Source: Alphaproteobacteria bacterium
Lineage (GTDB): Bacteria; Pseudomonadota; Alphaproteobacteria; SMXQ01
Reading direction: 5' to 3'
Assembly: GCA_030831315.1 (NCBI GenBank)
Contig: JAURLI010000007.1
Span: 1 to 64,000, forward strand
DNA length: 64,000 bases
The position numbers and the translations under genes are program-made. Shown piece after piece: positions 4,659 through 15,117 of the stretch (its first letter is position 1; the number at the start of each line of letters is the position of its first letter). Below the pieces are notes generated by a model. It was not told the origin of the DNA, searched no databases, and saw nothing but the letters and a program-made list of their open reading frames with translations.

Positions 4659-5597
4659 CTAGAGCGTCTTCCAGAACGCCAGCATCCTCTCGCGCGTCTT
4701 GGCATCGGGCATCGGCCCCATCGCCGCGCCGAGGTTGTCCGTCATGTACTGCGGCTTGTCGGTGCCGGGGATGGCACAGGTCACGGCGGGATGGCTGACG
4801 ACGAACTTCAGGAAGAACTGCGCCCACGACCTGATGCCGAATTCGGCCGCCCATTCGGGCACCTTCTTGCCTTTGACCTTGCGGAAGGTGCCGGCAAGCG
4901 CGAAGGGCCGGTTGATCAGCACCGCCATGCCGCGCTCCTGCGCGGTCGGCAGGATACGCTGGTCGGATTCCGGCTGCATCAGCGAATAGTTGATCTGCAT
5001 GAAGTCGAGCTTTTCCTTCTTCAACAAATCTACGTAACGGTCATAGTCACGCCGGAACGAGGTGGTGACGCCGACGTAACGCACCTTGCCCTCGTCCTTG
5101 AGACGCCGAATCGTCCGGATATGCGTGTCGAAGTCTTTCATGTTGTGGACCTGCAACAGATCGAAGCGGTCGGTGTTCCACTCCTTCAGGGCGGCGTTGA
5201 CCTGGGCAATGCCTTCCTGCTCGCCCTCGGTCGAAATCTTGGTCGCATAGAACACCTTGTCGCGCGCGCCGAGCTCGTTGACGAAGCGCCCCACCACGGC
5301 TTGCGCGTTACCGTAGGTCGGCGAGCAGTCGATGATCTTGCCGCCCTGCTCGATGAAGGTTTTCACCGTCGCCTTCAGTTCGGGCAGCTTTGGATCGTTC
5401 GCTTCCACGTCATAGACGCGCGCGGTGCCGAGACCGATGATCGGCAGCTTCTCGCCGCTCGACGGGATGGCGCGCTCGATCAGCGCCGCCGCACGGGCGC
5501 CGCGCGGGGCAACCGTCAGGCCAAGGGCGCCGCCGAAGGCCGCCGTCGCGCCCAGCGCGGCCGCGCCGGTGAGGAACTGCTTGCGGGAAATATCCAT
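4659..5597 (-). CDS. Tat-exported aldo/keto reductase
   Basis: A 312-residue aldo/keto reductase with the tetrad D90, Y95 (IIDCSPTYG), K120 (YATKIS) and H151 (LLQVHN). The N-terminus SRKQFLTGAAALG followed by a hydrophobic stretch and ARAA resembles a Tat signal (an RK variant of the twin-arginine motif), so it probably acts in the periplasm with a pre-bound cofactor. GGAG lies 8 bases before the chosen ATG; another ATG is 12 bases upstream. It is clearly paralogous to the second reductase near 14.6 kb, sharing QVHN, the NRPF segment and AIPGTxxPxYMxDNLGA. The substrate is unknown. Confidence 0.85.
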   Translation of the reverse strand: MDISRKQFLTGAAALGATAAFGGALGLTVAPRGARAAALIERAIPSSGEKLPIIGLGTARVYDVEANDPKLPELKATVKTFIEQGGKIIDCSPTYGNAQAVVGRFVNELGARDKVFYATKISTEGEQEGIAQVNAALKEWNTDRFDLLQVHNMKDFDTHIRTIRRLKDEGKVRYVGVTTSFRRDYDRYVDLLKKEKLDFMQINYSLMQPESDQRILPTAQERGMAVLINRPFALAGTFRKVKGKKVPEWAAEFGIRSWAQFFLKFVVSHPAVTCAIPGTDKPQYMTDNLGAAMGPMPDAKTRERMLAFWKTL

Positions 5598-5611
5598 GTG
5601 TTTCTCCATCG

Positions 5612-6901
5612 TTATTGGCTTCCCAGTTCGCGGGCGCGGCGTTCCTGCCGCTTGCCCAGAACCAGGCAAAGTCCGATCCAGATTGCGGCCACCGGCACGG
5701 TGAGCCAGGCGATCGCCGTAAGCTCGAGGCCCGCACCGCGCAGGCCCGCGAAGGTCCAGCCGCTTGCGGCATCGCCGCCGCGGAAGACCACGGTGTCCAT
5801 GAAGTTCTTCGCCTTGTATTTGTCCTCGCGCGGGATCACCGTGAACAGGATTTCACGCGCGGGATTGGTGATGGCGAAATCGGCGGCGCGCCGTATCGCC
5901 TGAAACGCAATGACGACGCCGAGCACCGGCGCTACCGCAAGGGCAAGAAATCCGACCAGCGTGACCAGCGGCATGAAGGCAAGCGCCGGCGCCACTCCGA
6001 AGCGCGTGATCAGGCGGCCCGTCGCGCTGACCTGAACGAGCAACGTCGCAAGCCCGACCGCAAGATCGATCAGCGCGAACACCCGTGTACGCTCGCCGGG
6101 ATCGGTGAAGGCCTTGGACACCACTTCCGCCTGCTGGAAATAAAGGAAGGTCGCCGTCGTCGTCAGCAGGACGATATGGCCGCAGATCATCAGCAGGTAC
6201 GGCGAGCGGATGACATGAACCAGCCCCGCCCACATGCCGCCGCCCACCGCGCTGTCGTTGTTGAGCCGCGCCGCCGCTTCCGTTCCGCCTGCGTCGGCCG
6301 TGCGCAGCAAGCCGCCCACGCATTGCGCCGCCCCTTCCAGCAGCACCGCCGAAATCAGCAGCAGGTTGACCGGCCCGAGCGGCACCGCCAGCGCCGCCGT
6401 GACCGTGGGACCAAGCAAGGCCCCGGTGGTGCCGCCCGCAGCGATGAAGCCGAACAGGCGCTTGCCCTGCTCGCTGGTGAACAGGTCCGCCATGAAGGAC
6501 CAGAACACCGTCACCACGAACAGGTTGAACACCGATACCCAGACGAAAAACACCCGCGCCACCCAGGGCGACGATCCGGTGAACTTGAGCGCGAGAAAAA
6601 AGATCAGGATGTTGATGATGAAGAAACGATAGACCCACGGCACGAAACGGCGGCGCGGAATGCGCGCGACCAGCATGCCGAAAACGGGAACGGCAGCCAG
6701 CATGACCACGAAGGTCGCCGAGAACATCCATTGCAGGTTACGCACGCCGCCCGCGACGCCCATCTCGTCGCGCAGGGGGCGCAGGATGTAATAGCTCGCC
6801 AGCAGGCAGAAGAAATAGGCGAATGCCCAGAGCATCGCGCGCACCTCTTCCGGGCGCACGTTCACGATCCGCGCGAGCGAGCTCAAAATGAATCCGGAAA
6901 T
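5612..6901 (-). CDS. Membrane transporter of the NTP/NDP-exchange (NTT)-like MFS group, probable ATT start
   Basis: About 429 residues with some twelve hydrophobic segments. The motif ASYYILRPLRDEMG and the following WMFSATF, FFVWVSVFNLFVVTVFWSF and KRLFGFIAAGGTTGALLG segments match the NTT-like/MFS carriers widespread in free-living bacteria; these are distant relatives of the ATP/ADP translocases, and their substrate is generally unproven. The frame has no ATG until residue M23 of this call. GGAGG lies exactly 6 bases before an ATT codon that gives a family-like N-terminus (ISGFILSSLARIVNVRPEEV), so an ATT start is proposed. A TTG 36 bases upstream or one 15 bases downstream are alternatives. 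Its stop is 14 bases before the reductase start, suggesting one transcript. Confidence 0.75.
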   Translation of the reverse strand: MSGFILSSLARIVNVRPEEVRAMLWAFAYFFCLLASYYILRPLRDEMGVAGGVRNLQWMFSATFVVMLAAVPVFGMLVARIPRRRFVPWVYRFFIINILIFFLALKFTGSSPWVARVFFVWVSVFNLFVVTVFWSFMADLFTSEQGKRLFGFIAAGGTTGALLGPTVTAALAVPLGPVNLLLISAVLLEGAAQCVGGLLRTADAGGTEAAARLNNDSAVGGGMWAGLVHVIRSPYLLMICGHIVLLTTTATFLYFQQAEVVSKAFTDPGERTRVFALIDLAVGLATLLVQVSATGRLITRFGVAPALAFMPLVTLVGFLALAVAPVLGVVIAFQAIRRAADFAITNPAREILFTVIPREDKYKAKNFMDTVVFRGGDAASGWTFAGLRGAGLELTAIAWLTVPVAAIWIGLCLVLGKRQERRARELGSQ

Positions 6902-10656: not shown

Positions 10657-11940
10657 ATGGGATCCCTTACTGCGTGTCGCCCGCGGCTCGTCGCGGCGGC
10701 AGCCCTCGCACTCGCCCTGCCCGCATTCGCCGCGACCCCGGCACTCGCCGATGTCTCCGGCTTCTACAAGGGCAAGACCATCACCGGCATTATCGGCTAC
10801 CCGCCCGGCGGCGGCTATGACCTTTACATGCGCGTGCTGTCGCACCACATGGGCCGTCACATCCCGGGCAACCCGAATATCGTGCCGCGCAACATGCCGG
10901 GCGCCGGCAGCCTCGTCTCGGCGAACTACATATACAATACGGCGCCCAAGGACGGATCGGTGATCGGCGCCTTTGCCTCGTCCACCCTGTTCTCGGTAAA
11001 ACTCGGCGAGACACGCGGCAAGTTCGAGATCGACAAGTTCACCTGGCTCGGTAACCTCGACCAGACCGTCGGCACCTGCACCGTGTGGCACACCTCGGGC
11101 ATCAAGTCGTTCGACGAACTGATGACCCGCGAGGCCATCTTCGGCGCATCCGGCCCCACTGCCGTCAACAGCACCCATGCGCGCGGCTTCAACGCTCTCT
11201 TCGGCACCCGCATCAAGGTCATCAACGGCTACCCCAGTTCGACCAGCGCGCTTCTCGCCATGAAGCGCGGCGAAGTTCAGGGCGGCTGCGGCTTCGCGCT
11301 GTCGTCGCTGAAGGCGACCCGCGCCCAGGAATGGGCTTCGGGCGACCTGCGCGTCATCATCCAGACGGGCTACGAGAAGAACGACAAGGAACTGAAGGGC
11401 GTTCCGCATATCTACGACTATGCCAAGAGCGAGGCCGACAAGCAGGTCATGCACCTGATCTACGGCACACATATCCTGGGCCGCCCGATTTCGGCGCCGC
11501 CCAACCTGCCCGCCGACCGCGCACGCGCGCTTCGCGATGCGTTCAACGCCATGGTCAAGGACCCGAAGTTCCTCGCCGAGGCGGACAAGCTCAAGCTGCC
11601 CATCGAACCCTGGACCGGCGAAAAGGTGGACGAAGTCATTCGCCAGTTCGCCGCCTATCCGAAGGATGTCTATGCCCGCACCATCAAGATCCTTGAGGTC
11701 GGCGACGTCGTGAACGTCAAGCTCAAGACCGTCGAGGGCAAGGTAACGGCAGTCAAGAAAACCAACCTGACGGTGGCAGGGGCCGACGGCAAGGCGGTGA
11801 AGCTCAAGGTTCACGCCAAGCAGACCCGCGCCACCATCGGCGGCAAAAAGGCCAGCGCCACCGATATCAAGGTCGGCATGAGCTGTGCCTTCGAATACTT
11901 CGGGGCAGGCGACCTGGCACCCAAGGCCACCTGCAAGTAG
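10657..11940 (+). CDS. TctC-type (Bug family) solute-binding protein with C-terminal extension domain
   Basis: A 427-residue exported protein. Residues 1-31 are a signal peptide ending ALA. The body from YKGKTITGIIGYPPGGGYDLYMRVL through GAGSLVSANYIYN matches receptors of the tripartite tricarboxylate transporter family, which bind small carboxylates in the periplasm. From about residue 349 to the end lies an extra domain of some 79 residues (KTVEGKVTAVKKTNLTVAG, then CAFEYFG) that reads like a small beta-barrel of the DUF5666 type and is not part of the usual receptor of about 320-330 residues. AGGAGGA precedes the ATG ideally. No TctA or TctB gene is nearby. A terminator follows. Confidence 0.85.
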   Translation: MGSLTACRPRLVAAAALALALPAFAATPALADVSGFYKGKTITGIIGYPPGGGYDLYMRVLSHHMGRHIPGNPNIVPRNMPGAGSLVSANYIYNTAPKDGSVIGAFASSTLFSVKLGETRGKFEIDKFTWLGNLDQTVGTCTVWHTSGIKSFDELMTREAIFGASGPTAVNSTHARGFNALFGTRIKVINGYPSSTSALLAMKRGEVQGGCGFALSSLKATRAQEWASGDLRVIIQTGYEKNDKELKGVPHIYDYAKSEADKQVMHLIYGTHILGRPISAPPNLPADRARALRDAFNAMVKDPKFLAEADKLKLPIEPWTGEKVDEVIRQFAAYPKDVYARTIKILEVGDVVNVKLKTVEGKVTAVKKTNLTVAGADGKAVKLKVHAKQTRATIGGKKASATDIKVGMSCAFEYFGAGDLAPKATCK

Positions 11941-11984: not shown

Positions 11985-12065
11985 GGGCCCTTGCGGTTGC
12001 CCTGCCGCCCAGCTTTGCTAGTCTTGGCCCACAAGAAATTTCAATCCAGTCCAAGGGAGTGCCCC

Positions 12066-13202
12066 ATGCTGCTCATCAACAACGACCTCGTCGCCCAGGT
12101 CCTGACCATGGACGATGTGATCGAAGCACAGGAAAACGCCTTCAAGAAACTGCCGACAGGCGGCGCGATCCATCGCCCGCGTATCGACATGTATTTTCCC
12201 TGCCAGCGCGATGACGGCTATTTCCGCTGGGGCACGATGGAAGGCGCCAACGACGGCTATTTCGCCATCCGCATGAAATCCGACATCATCCACTGGCCCC
12301 AGGACAAGGACGGCAACTGGACCGAAGAAAAATACTGCCGGGAACCGGGTACCTACTGCGGCCTGATCCTGCTGATCTCGACCGAGAACGCCGAACCGCT
12401 CGCCTTCATCAACGACGGCATGCTTCAGCACATGCGGGTCGGCGGCGGCGCGGGCATCGGCGTGAAATACCTCGCCCGCAAGGACAGCCACGTCGTCGGC
12501 ATGCTGGGTTCCGGCGGCATGGCGCGCACCTTCCTCGAGGCCTTCAAGTCGGTACGCGATATCCGCCAGTGCAAGGTCTACAGCCCCACCGCCGCGCACC
12601 GCGAGGAATACGCCGAGGAAATGTCCAAGCGCCTCAATATCGAGGTCATCGCCGTAGACAATCCGCGCGACGCGATCCGGGGCGCCGATATTCTGTCTTC
12701 CTGCACCGATTCGATGAACCCCGTCTACGATGCCGACTGGATCGAACCGGGCATGCATGTCACGAACCTCGGCCGGCGTGAAATGCCCGATGCGTCGGGC
12801 GAGAAGTTCGACGTCGTCATCCGGCAGGGAACGGCCGGCCTGCAGATGAAGATGACCGAACGCTTCCAGGCCGAACGCGGCCTTTCCCCCGCCGCCTATA
12901 TCGGCGGCACGGTCGAGGAAATGAAGCGAATTCCTGCGAAAAACCCGGAACCGGGATTCGGCGGCGACGACCCTGACTTCAAGGATCGCGGCAAGGGCGG
13001 CACCTATCCCGACTTCGCCGATCTCGTGTCGGGCAAGTCGCCGGGCCGCACCTCGCCGGACCAGGTCACCTTCTACCGCAACGTCGGCAACCAGGGCCTG
13101 CAGTTTTCGGCCGTCGGCCAGGTCGTCTACCGCAAGTGCAAGGAACAGAAGCTCGGCAAGGAAATCCCCACCGACTGGTTCCTGCAGGACATCCGCGACT
13201 AG
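12066..13202 (+). CDS. Ornithine cyclodeaminase / mu-crystallin family protein
   Basis: A 378-residue NAD(P)-dependent enzyme of the OCD/mu-crystallin family, which includes ornithine cyclodeaminase, alanine dehydrogenase and ketimine reductases. FAIRMKSD contains the conserved substrate-side Lys, VVGMLGSGGMARTFLEAF is the Rossmann nucleotide motif, and PGRTSPDQVTFY is the conserved C-terminal turn. It is longer than usual (about 310-350), with added sequence in the N-terminal substrate domain (CREPGTYCGLILLIS region) and a Gly/Asp-rich insert before the last motif. AGGGAG precedes the ATG. Substrate specificity cannot be assigned. It lies downstream of the receptor's terminator and convergent with an amidohydrolase. 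Confidence 0.85.
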   Translation: MLLINNDLVAQVLTMDDVIEAQENAFKKLPTGGAIHRPRIDMYFPCQRDDGYFRWGTMEGANDGYFAIRMKSDIIHWPQDKDGNWTEEKYCREPGTYCGLILLISTENAEPLAFINDGMLQHMRVGGGAGIGVKYLARKDSHVVGMLGSGGMARTFLEAFKSVRDIRQCKVYSPTAAHREEYAEEMSKRLNIEVIAVDNPRDAIRGADILSSCTDSMNPVYDADWIEPGMHVTNLGRREMPDASGEKFDVVIRQGTAGLQMKMTERFQAERGLSPAAYIGGTVEEMKRIPAKNPEPGFGGDDPDFKDRGKGGTYPDFADLVSGKSPGRTSPDQVTFYRNVGNQGLQFSAVGQVVYRKCKEQKLGKEIPTDWFLQDIRD

Positions 13203-14193: not shown

Positions 14194-15117
14194 TCAAAGG
14201 CGGGCGAGCGCGTCCCTCATTTTTCCACGCGCTGCCTCGTCGGGCATCGGCCCCCGTCCCGCGCCCAGATTATCGGCCATGTATTCCGGCCGCGCGGTGC
14301 CCGGAATGGCGCAGGTCATCGCCGGATGGCCAAGGATGTATTTCAGGAACATCTGCGCCCAGCTTTCGCAGCCGAGCTCCCGCGCGAACTGCGGCACCGC
14401 TGTCCCGCGTGTCCTGGCGAACAGGTCGCCGCCCTCGAAGGGCCGGTTGGCAATCACCGCAACGCCGAGATCGCGCGCCAGCGGCAACAGCCGCGCCTCG
14501 GCGTCCGTCACCGCGATCGAATAGGGAATCTGCAGGAAGTCGAGCGGCTCGGCCCGCAGCACCGTTTCCAGTTCGTCGAAGGCGGACGGGGTGTAATGGG
14601 TGATGCCGAGATAGCGGAAACGCCCCGCCTCGCGCCAGGCGCGCATGGTCCGCAGCTGCGTGCGCCAGTCGACCAGATTGTGGACCTGCATCAGGTCAAT
14701 GCGGTCGGTGCGAAACCGCCTGAAGGACTGTTCCATCTGCGCGCGGCCTTCCGCTTCGCCTTCGGTCCAGACCTTGGTAGCGAGGAAAGCCCGGCTGCGC
14801 GACGCGGCCGCCGCCAGCAAGTCGCCGACCACGCCCTCGGCACGGAGATACATGGGCGATGAATCGATGACCGAGCCGCCGCCCGCGAACAGAACGTCGA
14901 GCACGCGGCCTAGCCTTGCGCGGTCAGCCGCATCGTCACCGATATCGAAGGTCTGCCAGGTGCCGACGCCGACGACCGGAGTGGCTTCGCCTGATTTCGG
15001 GATCGTCCGCTTTTGCAGCGGTGTCCCCTGCCCGCCTGCAATTCCCGGCGCGAGCCCCGCCATCAGCGCAGCCCCCAGCGCGCCCTTGCAGAATGCCCTG
15101 CGGCCCGCGCGCCTCAA
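14194..15117 (-). CDS. Aldo/keto reductase with twin-arginine signal
   Basis: A 307-residue aldo/keto reductase with tetrad D85, Y90 (VIDSSPMY), K115 (LATKVW) and H146 (LMQVHN). The N-terminus GRRAFCKGALGAALMAGLAPGIAGG is a twin-arginine signal with hydrophobic core, so periplasmic location is likely. The C-terminal part (MFLKYILGHPAMTCAIPGT) closely parallels the reductase near 5 kb. Its start overlaps the stop of the upstream Gfo/Idh/MocA gene by 4 bases (ATGA), indicating translational coupling. Substrate unknown. Confidence 0.85.
   Translation of the reverse strand: MRRAGRRAFCKGALGAALMAGLAPGIAGGQGTPLQKRTIPKSGEATPVVGVGTWQTFDIGDDAADRARLGRVLDVLFAGGGSVIDSSPMYLRAEGVVGDLLAAAASRSRAFLATKVWTEGEAEGRAQMEQSFRRFRTDRIDLMQVHNLVDWRTQLRTMRAWREAGRFRYLGITHYTPSAFDELETVLRAEPLDFLQIPYSIAVTDAEARLLPLARDLGVAVIANRPFEGGDLFARTRGTAVPQFARELGCESWAQMFLKYILGHPAMTCAIPGTARPEYMADNLGAGRGPMPDEAARGKMRDALARL

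Follow-up and report, generated by a model that had tools for sequence, protein, structure and literature searches.

An OB-like cationic C-terminal domain, predicted on many TctC-type receptors of an alphaproteobacterial family, and its polylysine counterpart

Introduction

What is the extra C-terminal segment of a solute-binding receptor that runs on past the point at which its relatives stop, and what might it do for the receptor? The question is raised by a receptor (P0001) encoded in a 64,000-nucleotide stretch of DNA, here called the window, on contig C34 of a 2.7 Mb alphaproteobacterial genome (G000). Bordetella and Rhodoplanes are known to combine an expanded set of TctC-type receptors with few permeases (PMC5994714, PMC5812351), and most Bug proteins are orphans (PMC5812351). 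The reason for keeping dozens to hundreds of such receptors is unsettled, shared permeases and sensing both being considered (PMC5994714). According to the original prediction, the fusion of an added domain to such a receptor is not known to have been described, and none was found when C-terminal domains, OB folds and polylysine or lysine-rich ends on these receptors were sought in the open-licence literature by title and start of abstract, which is weak evidence. The available text of PMC5994714 contains no occurrence of 'C-terminal', 'lysine' or 'extension', and among the matches listed for PMC5812351 (12 of 17 places) nothing concerns such TctC ends.

Results

The features of the locus are collected in Table 1. 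The open frame of P0001 reaches upstream to 10543; the start at 10657 is preferred because it gives a signal-peptide-like beginning (judged by eye) and agrees with that of the orthologue P0002. The AlphaFold2 model contains the two-lobed periplasmic binding fold of Bug27 and TphC (Foldseek E down to 6.7e-18), with the last core helix at residues 336-347 followed by strands across 357-426. The top Foldseek matches of the core are TBP (8hk9) and TphC (7ndr), with target TM up to 0.80, and later ones include a Polaromonas TctC protein, Rpa4515, Bug27 (2qpq), BugD and MatC; the ligands in the titles of the nearest solved relatives are terephthalate, oxoadipate and malate. Pfam TctC (PF03401) gives no match to P0001 at E up to 10 and scores 17.4 bits with P0002 (cut-off 27). 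Since 35 of 50 TctC matches of the genome exceed this cut-off and P0001 falls below it, we regard P0001 as a divergent relative. The reading frame, AlphaFold2 and Foldseek agree on a TctC-type receptor with an added C-terminal β-rich domain, as originally predicted, and untailed relatives from other bacterial families stop near the start of the tail, in keeping with the claim that TctC receptors end before it.

Table 1. Positions of the receptor, its parts and the following gene within the window
Feature	Position	Strand	Basis
TctC/Bug-type solute-binding receptor, OB-like C-terminal domain, 427 aa	10657..11940	+	ORF, AlphaFold2, Foldseek
Signal peptide region, residues 1-32	10657..10752	+	By eye; residues 1-30 pLDDT <50
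Periplasmic binding core, residues 33-347/348	10753..11698	+	AlphaFold2 model, Foldseek
Added C-terminal domain, residues 349-427	11701..11937	+	Predicted OB-like β barrel
Cys410, first conserved tail cysteine	11884..11886	+	Tail alignment
Cys426, second conserved tail cysteine, penultimate residue	11932..11934	+	Tail alignment
Ornithine cyclodeaminase/mu-crystallin family gene	11991..13202	+	Likely start 12066, by eye

The counterpart of this locus in Dino_bin8, an alphaproteobacterial MAG from Centrosaurus fossil bone (PMC8067395), is a tandem pair of tailed receptors, with the ornithine cyclodeaminase gene coming next (94% identity). Genome G001, from the same genus as the window, is either the Dino_bin8 assembly or an exact sharer of the stretch, locus L218 lying wholly within L025. 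Contig C13, G005 and G002 each have a paralogue of the cyclodeaminase next to a tailed receptor. The neighbouring genes look catabolic (by Pfam for the window, elsewhere by eye). The region lies between two aldo/keto-reductase-like proteins whose leaders, judged by eye, resemble export signals (4659-5669 and 14194-15117 (-)); the Dino_bin8 counterpart of the 14194-15117 protein is 77% identical to that protein and 42% to the one at 4659-5669.

Modelled in isolation, residues 349-427 give an ordered barrel of seven short strands with a mean pLDDT of 83 in the best of five models (range 83 to 42), built on an alignment of 3 sequences (the tail and two homologues). This small β barrel, which rests on a predicted model and a shallow alignment, has OB-fold neighbours. 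Foldseek places it at a probability of about 1.0 with chains of IF-1, RsgA/YjeQ and LysRS, none of them at E <0.001. VIA-align matches it to many OB folds at Z 7-9, the best being CusF (2qcp; Z 8.9, rmsd 2.1, 67 residues aligned), and the spread of these scores over many OB folds leads us to accept the general fold alone. We thus predict that residues 349-427 form a separate OB-like barrel. A disordered or unremarkable tail is ruled out by the isolated-tail model together with conservation across 37 paralogues.

The most conserved feature of the tail is its pair of cysteines (410 and 426, in the pattern IKVGMSC...ATCK), both found in 37/37 tails of G000; at least two cysteines occur in 106/106 tail domains of a wider set. 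Cys410 sits on the penultimate strand (tail residues 64-69) facing Cys426 on the final strand (78-81), and from these positions in the model a disulfide between them is likely. The tail of P0001 carries a net charge of +9 over 79 residues (15 K/R, 6 D/E), even though three arginines common in other tails are missing from it. Across 99 tailed proteins (104 less 5 that have no core) the mean charge per 100 residues is +20 for tails and +5 for cores, and every one of the 99 tails is net positive; 14 alignment columns are basic in >60% of rows, and 1 is acidic in >40%. A profile of the other 36 tails recovers P0001 at E 2.5e-21 in a search of that protein alone, and the tail profile found no match at E up to 10 among 4,644 reversed or shuffled decoys.

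In Pfam and NCBIfam the P0001 tail matches nothing above cut-off. DUF5666 (PF18914), the family proposed in the original prediction, gives no match to this tail, among the 37 tails or in the whole of G000. One small protein from a different bacterial family, L207, is picked up by the tail profile at E 2.1e-5, and L207 in turn scores 29.7 bits against Pfam DUF5666 (cut-off 27); hhalign finds a weak match between the tail profile and six stretches of DUF5666 (probability 48%, E 2.9e-5 as a single comparison). The guess therefore survives in part: the direct PF18914 match is lacking, and a remote relation by way of L207 is plausible. Pfam CusF (PF11604) gives no match to the P0001 tail at E up to 10, and the Z of 8.9 between the tail model and CusF may reflect nothing beyond the common barrel. 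The best Pfam match among the 37 tails is DUF3060, in one member, at E 0.0021; four stand-alone domain proteins have no Pfam match, and the best E in a PDB sequence search with the tail was 0.27. On these searches, no Pfam family covers the tail domain.

Searching G000 with the P0001 tail alone gave 37 matches, and with the profile 39. Iterating the profile on the fetched stretches yielded 37 proteins in which the domain, of ~70 residues, is always at the extreme C-terminus. Its hosts are 30 TctC-like receptors (one a contig-end fragment), 5 receptors of SBP_bac_1/6/8 type (4 of which were scanned with Pfam) and 2 small secreted proteins consisting of a signal-peptide-like leader and the domain; a third such stand-alone protein, of 89 aa, lies outside the 37. 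A profile of the 5 SBP_bac-type tails alone recovers the 32 other tails, and the median tail identity is 38% between TctC-type and SBP_bac-type hosts and also 38% within the TctC type. Against 16 TctA, the genome has 94 or more TctC-like ORFs (fragments among them); genes were called by a simple codon-usage script rather than a standard gene finder, and with 100 candidates scored the receptor counts are minimum values. That the tail is universal in the TctC family is rejected, since 64 of these 94 ORFs and 9/9 receptors from Xanthobacteraceae/Beijerinckiaceae (two of them cut at the N-terminus) are without it. Other TctC proteins with the same tail do exist, 30 of them in G000, and the tail is not found throughout the family, as the notion of an added domain implies. 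Judged by sequence, the tail is real and belongs to a domain family rather than being a single fusion.

Beyond G000, the domain was found in 11/11 genomes of the same bacterial family (7-69 matches each, 350 overall) and in 0 of the other 50 genomes of that sample. Among 385 genomes of the class, with at most 15 candidates scored per genome, 11 have a match: 5 in the own family, 4 in a second family with 2-4 copies each, 1 in a third, and 1 weak match in a frame of 50 residues. In 398 genomes of the phylum the 2 with a match are G000 and the genome carrying L207. A wider set of 104 tailed proteins comprises 84 TctC-like receptors and 2 fragments, 15 SBP_bac-type receptors and 3 stand-alone proteins; 28 further reads brought no new kind of host, making roughly 120 of the 350 family matches read in total. 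The OB domain is present in 19 of 34 receptor reads (one receptor among these being read twice), polylysine in 4 and neither in 11 (5 of these 11 at loci without genome assignment). Genome G003 (genus g3 of the own family) has 86 receptor matches and 7 OB domains, and 6/6 of its receptors sampled carry neither module; several TctC-like frames there contain an internal stop.

Some arrangements are unusual. Two adjacent receptors in G005 (contig C17, 611066-612580 and 612636-614150; L155) each have two tandem OB domains, and two neighbouring matches in frames of 549 aa in G008 (C128) are perhaps tandem domains of the same kind. In the third bacterial family, a receptor end and an OB domain are joined to an unrelated N-terminus (L167; G236, C148, 9125-9697), which is either a misassembly or a real chimera.

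In a tree of the receptor cores of 89 G000 receptors (5 of the 94 ORFs were dropped for short matches), the tail label needs 15 changes, compared with a mean of 25 when labels are shuffled. The well-supported branches, 30 of 86 inner ones, force at least 6 of these changes. The domain therefore appears to have been gained or lost several times while being inherited in clusters, and a single ancestral gain by duplication without loss is unsupported. One gain followed by many losses is a possible history on the sequences. A tree of the tails themselves has 6 changes between SBP_bac-type and other hosts, 1 of them forced, so more than one move between the receptor families is not required.

A second C-terminal feature emerges among receptors that lack the domain. 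By a strict rule (KKKK within the last 12 residues), polylysine ends 29 of the 61 complete receptors that lack the domain and none of the 37 proteins that have it, a set counting the stand-alone and SBP_bac-type hosts (Fisher 3.9e-8). The same rule picks out 1 of 362 other called genes drawn from stretches around the receptors (that one a TctA) and no gene either among 70 others bearing a crude signal-peptide pattern or among the 53 of the window, which rules out chance or a genome-wide habit. If the rule is relaxed, lysine-rich ends are found on 34 of the tree's 60 untailed receptors (one doubtful), and 63 of its 89 receptors bear either the OB domain or such an end. A census of five consecutive AAR codons over the whole genome, independent of gene calling, gave 66 overlapping matches that were merged by hand to 29 tracts: 23 lie at TctC-like C-termini, 2 at SBP_bac-type C-termini, 1 within a receptor, 1 within an MFS protein and 2 in ORF-less low-complexity DNA. 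The backwards-pattern control of this census matches the same AAG repeats and is thus not independent.

The pattern recurs in G005, where 4/4 untailed neighbouring receptors end in polylysine and 0/113 other genes do; the 9 Xanthobacteraceae/Beijerinckiaceae receptors have neither module, nor do two further f105 frames. Two tandem receptors on contig C65 resemble each other as far as one point, beyond which one has the OB domain and the other KKKKKKKKAEE. Six close SBP_bac-type members from 30 loci in four genomes are without the barrel. By the strict rule polylysine ends 4 of them, including an apparent orthologue pair to which G000 and G001 contribute one member each; another of the six is K/R-rich and the last has neither. 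G001 holds at least 4 more untailed SBP_bac-type matches outside the members read. Remote SBP_bac-type proteins, one in G008 (L274) and three in G000, have neither module by the strict rule. In eight G000 receptors (contigs C1, C16, C27, C34, C56 and C71) the lysines are preceded by a short two-cysteine C-x(n)-C loop, for example DCKTLVKDQKFCQAAKKKKKKST. The polylysine tract is presumably disordered. At the level of the sequences, the OB domain and polylysine are shown to be mutually exclusive and to share charge and C-terminal position.

Three further lysine-rich or repetitive sites deserve mention. A TctC-like receptor without either module (contig C56, 58705-59976, minus strand) has six internal lysines (GKKKKKKPT) near residue 190. 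A TctA permease on contig C69 (103273-104787, minus strand) ends in RKKKKAA, and two nearby TctC-like receptors also end in polylysine. The first 500 nucleotides of contig C20 (1-500) consist of long trinucleotide and low-complexity repeats, possibly foreign DNA or an assembly artefact.

We then consider the permease genes. TctA has no match on contig C34; in this respect P0001 is an orphan, as most Bug proteins are (PMC5812351). Of the receptors within 2 kb of a TctA gene, 9 have neither module, 3 have polylysine and 0 have the OB domain; elsewhere the counts are 23, 26 and 30 (strict polylysine rule, 3 contig-end fragments dropped). At this limit Fisher's test gives 0.003 for any module and 0.007 for the OB domain. 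At 3 kb, 1 of 30 tailed and 12 of 64 untailed receptors are near TctA and the value for the OB domain rises to 0.055, so the link depends on the limit chosen. The one tailed receptor counted at 3 kb belongs to an operon on contig C13 with the order TctA, TctB-like, TctA, TctB-like, stand-alone copies, tailed receptor and ornithine cyclodeaminase; its TctB-like genes score 25.5 and 20.3 bits (cut-off 29.1). The same order is found in G005 with one TctA and one TctB-like gene (which resembles that of C13 and has no Pfam match), and in reduced form in G002, where a stand-alone copy, the tailed receptor and the cyclodeaminase gene are preceded by a short TctA-like stretch only. The original prediction of no TctA or TctB nearby thus stands for TctA on the window's own contig, and is qualified by this paralogous operon, which does join TctA, TctB-like genes, the domain and a tailed receptor.

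Two of the 5 tailed SBP_bac-type receptors (on C35 and C59) adjoin, or are one gene away from, an ABC permease gene, which indicates that the module is not limited to orphans. Taken with the C13 operon, they make the module compatible with transport and not bound to one type of permease; co-encoding with TctA and TctB-like genes on C13 is a hint of a role in transport itself. A specific neighbouring gene as partner was sought over 22 families: one singleton family gave p 0.026, and genes of a cluster resembling ornithine cyclodeaminase (so named by eye) adjoin 7 of 37 as against 4 of 62 (p 0.09). Both values are uncorrected and are not taken as evidence.

Discussion

Our preferred reading, to which we assign a probability of roughly 0.4, is that the OB barrel and the polylysine run are exchangeable, positively charged C-terminal anchors by which receptors, most of them orphans, are held to an anionic component of the cell envelope or to a partner in common. 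Positive charge is the feature common to the barrel and the lysine run, and an electrostatic account is the simplest because it covers both. The receptor would be exported, after which its positive C-terminus would hold it to a polyanionic part of the envelope (LPS, a peptidoglycan-linked polymer or the membrane surface). Such retention would keep many diffusible receptors concentrated by porins or by a few shared permeases. In its folded form the module would be an OB-like barrel, probably stapled by the disulfide and probably a distant relation of DUF5666. Both the anionic target and the retention role are what we infer. That about two thirds of some ninety similar receptors carry a barrel or a lysine run suggests a shared way of being held at the envelope. 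We count against anchoring the 23 of 79 receptors away from TctA that have neither module by the strict rule, the module-less remote SBP_bac-type proteins, and G003 with its few OB domains, as well as the sensitivity of the TctA link to the distance limit, the tailed SBP_bac-type receptors near ABC permease genes and the C13 operon. A broader version is put forward more tentatively, and we would sooner expect it to fail than to hold: a general C-terminal address, in two interchangeable forms (the disulfide-stapled cationic OB domain, or polylysine that sometimes follows a Cys loop), may hold orphan receptors of unrelated families at the anionic envelope surface.

The strongest rival, because of the C13-type operon, is that the domain docks onto a protein common to many receptors (the TctA/TctB permease, for instance, or some other component of the membrane), which would let numerous orphans feed few permeases. 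The excess of TctC-like ORFs over TctA genes fits this, as do the runs of TctA, TctB-like gene, stand-alone domain and tailed receptor on C13 and in G005 and their reduced form in G002, and several receptors per permease have already been proposed for Rhodoplanes (PMC5994714). We nevertheless consider docking doubtful: the same domain is found on SBP_bac-type receptors near ABC permease genes, tailed receptors are otherwise away from TctA (0/30 within 2 kb, 1/30 within 3 kb), and the alternation with a featureless polylysine run speaks against a specific folded interface.

The module could instead concentrate anionic substrates (carboxylates, aromatic acids) at the cleft, or form part of it, and the ligands of the solved relatives and the catabolic look of the neighbouring genes are in line with this. 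We hold it to be unlikely, since both modules hang off the C-terminal end, conservation between orthologues falls from 84% over the entire protein to 71% in the tail, and the receptors adjacent to TctA, whose ligands are likewise anionic, mostly lack modules. Protection offers another account, and we think it more unlikely still. Periplasmic tail-specific proteases prefer nonpolar C-terminal ends, and a polar, charged or disulfide-locked C-terminus would shield abundant receptors from them; both modules do replace a plain C-terminus with a polar one, but lysine runs and a 70-residue domain far exceed what is needed to avoid a nonpolar end, and many module-less receptors have polar ends as well. 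The least probable of the readings, in our estimate, makes the module a lineage-specific sorting signal that, like other C-terminal sorting domains, would direct receptors across the outer membrane or to some special compartment. It would agree with up to dozens of copies per genome, a C-terminal position wherever read, unrelated receptor families and an occurrence limited to a single bacterial family plus a few genomes elsewhere. The hosts, however, are solute-binding proteins and small stand-alone copies (roughly 120 of 350 read) with no mix of secreted enzymes, and polylysine would be an odd equivalent of such a signal.

A shared tail that receptors adjacent to TctA mostly lack, that two unrelated receptor families carry and that takes two chemically similar forms gives a direct handle on the excess of receptors. 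Two further gains are a domain that Pfam does not cover, of which a single genome may have dozens of copies, and a clear example of polylysine ends being almost confined to one functional class of proteins. Lysine-rich low-complexity regions of prokaryotes have been tied to nucleic-acid binding (PMC6821194).

Comparison with known systems

The receptors share the core fold of the TctC/Bug proteins (PF03401; TphC, Bug27, AdpC) and their expansion alongside few permeases, and differ from them in the OB domain or polylysine added in this bacterial family. The SBP_bac_1/6/8 receptors of ABC transporters are a second carrier of the same C-terminal modules, but belong to a sequence family separate from TctC (clustering gave no link). 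With DUF5666 (PF18914) the tail has in common a pattern similar by eye and a profile that reaches the DUF5666 protein L207; it departs from that family in its two invariant cysteines and strong positive charge, L207 itself having no cysteine. In structure the tail model comes closest to the CusF-like periplasmic OB folds (PF11604; CusF 2qcp), whereas in sequence Pfam CusF matches 2 of the 37 tails, with a best E of 0.043, below the cut-off (on this scale E 0.068 corresponded to 13.5 bits, the cut-off being 27).
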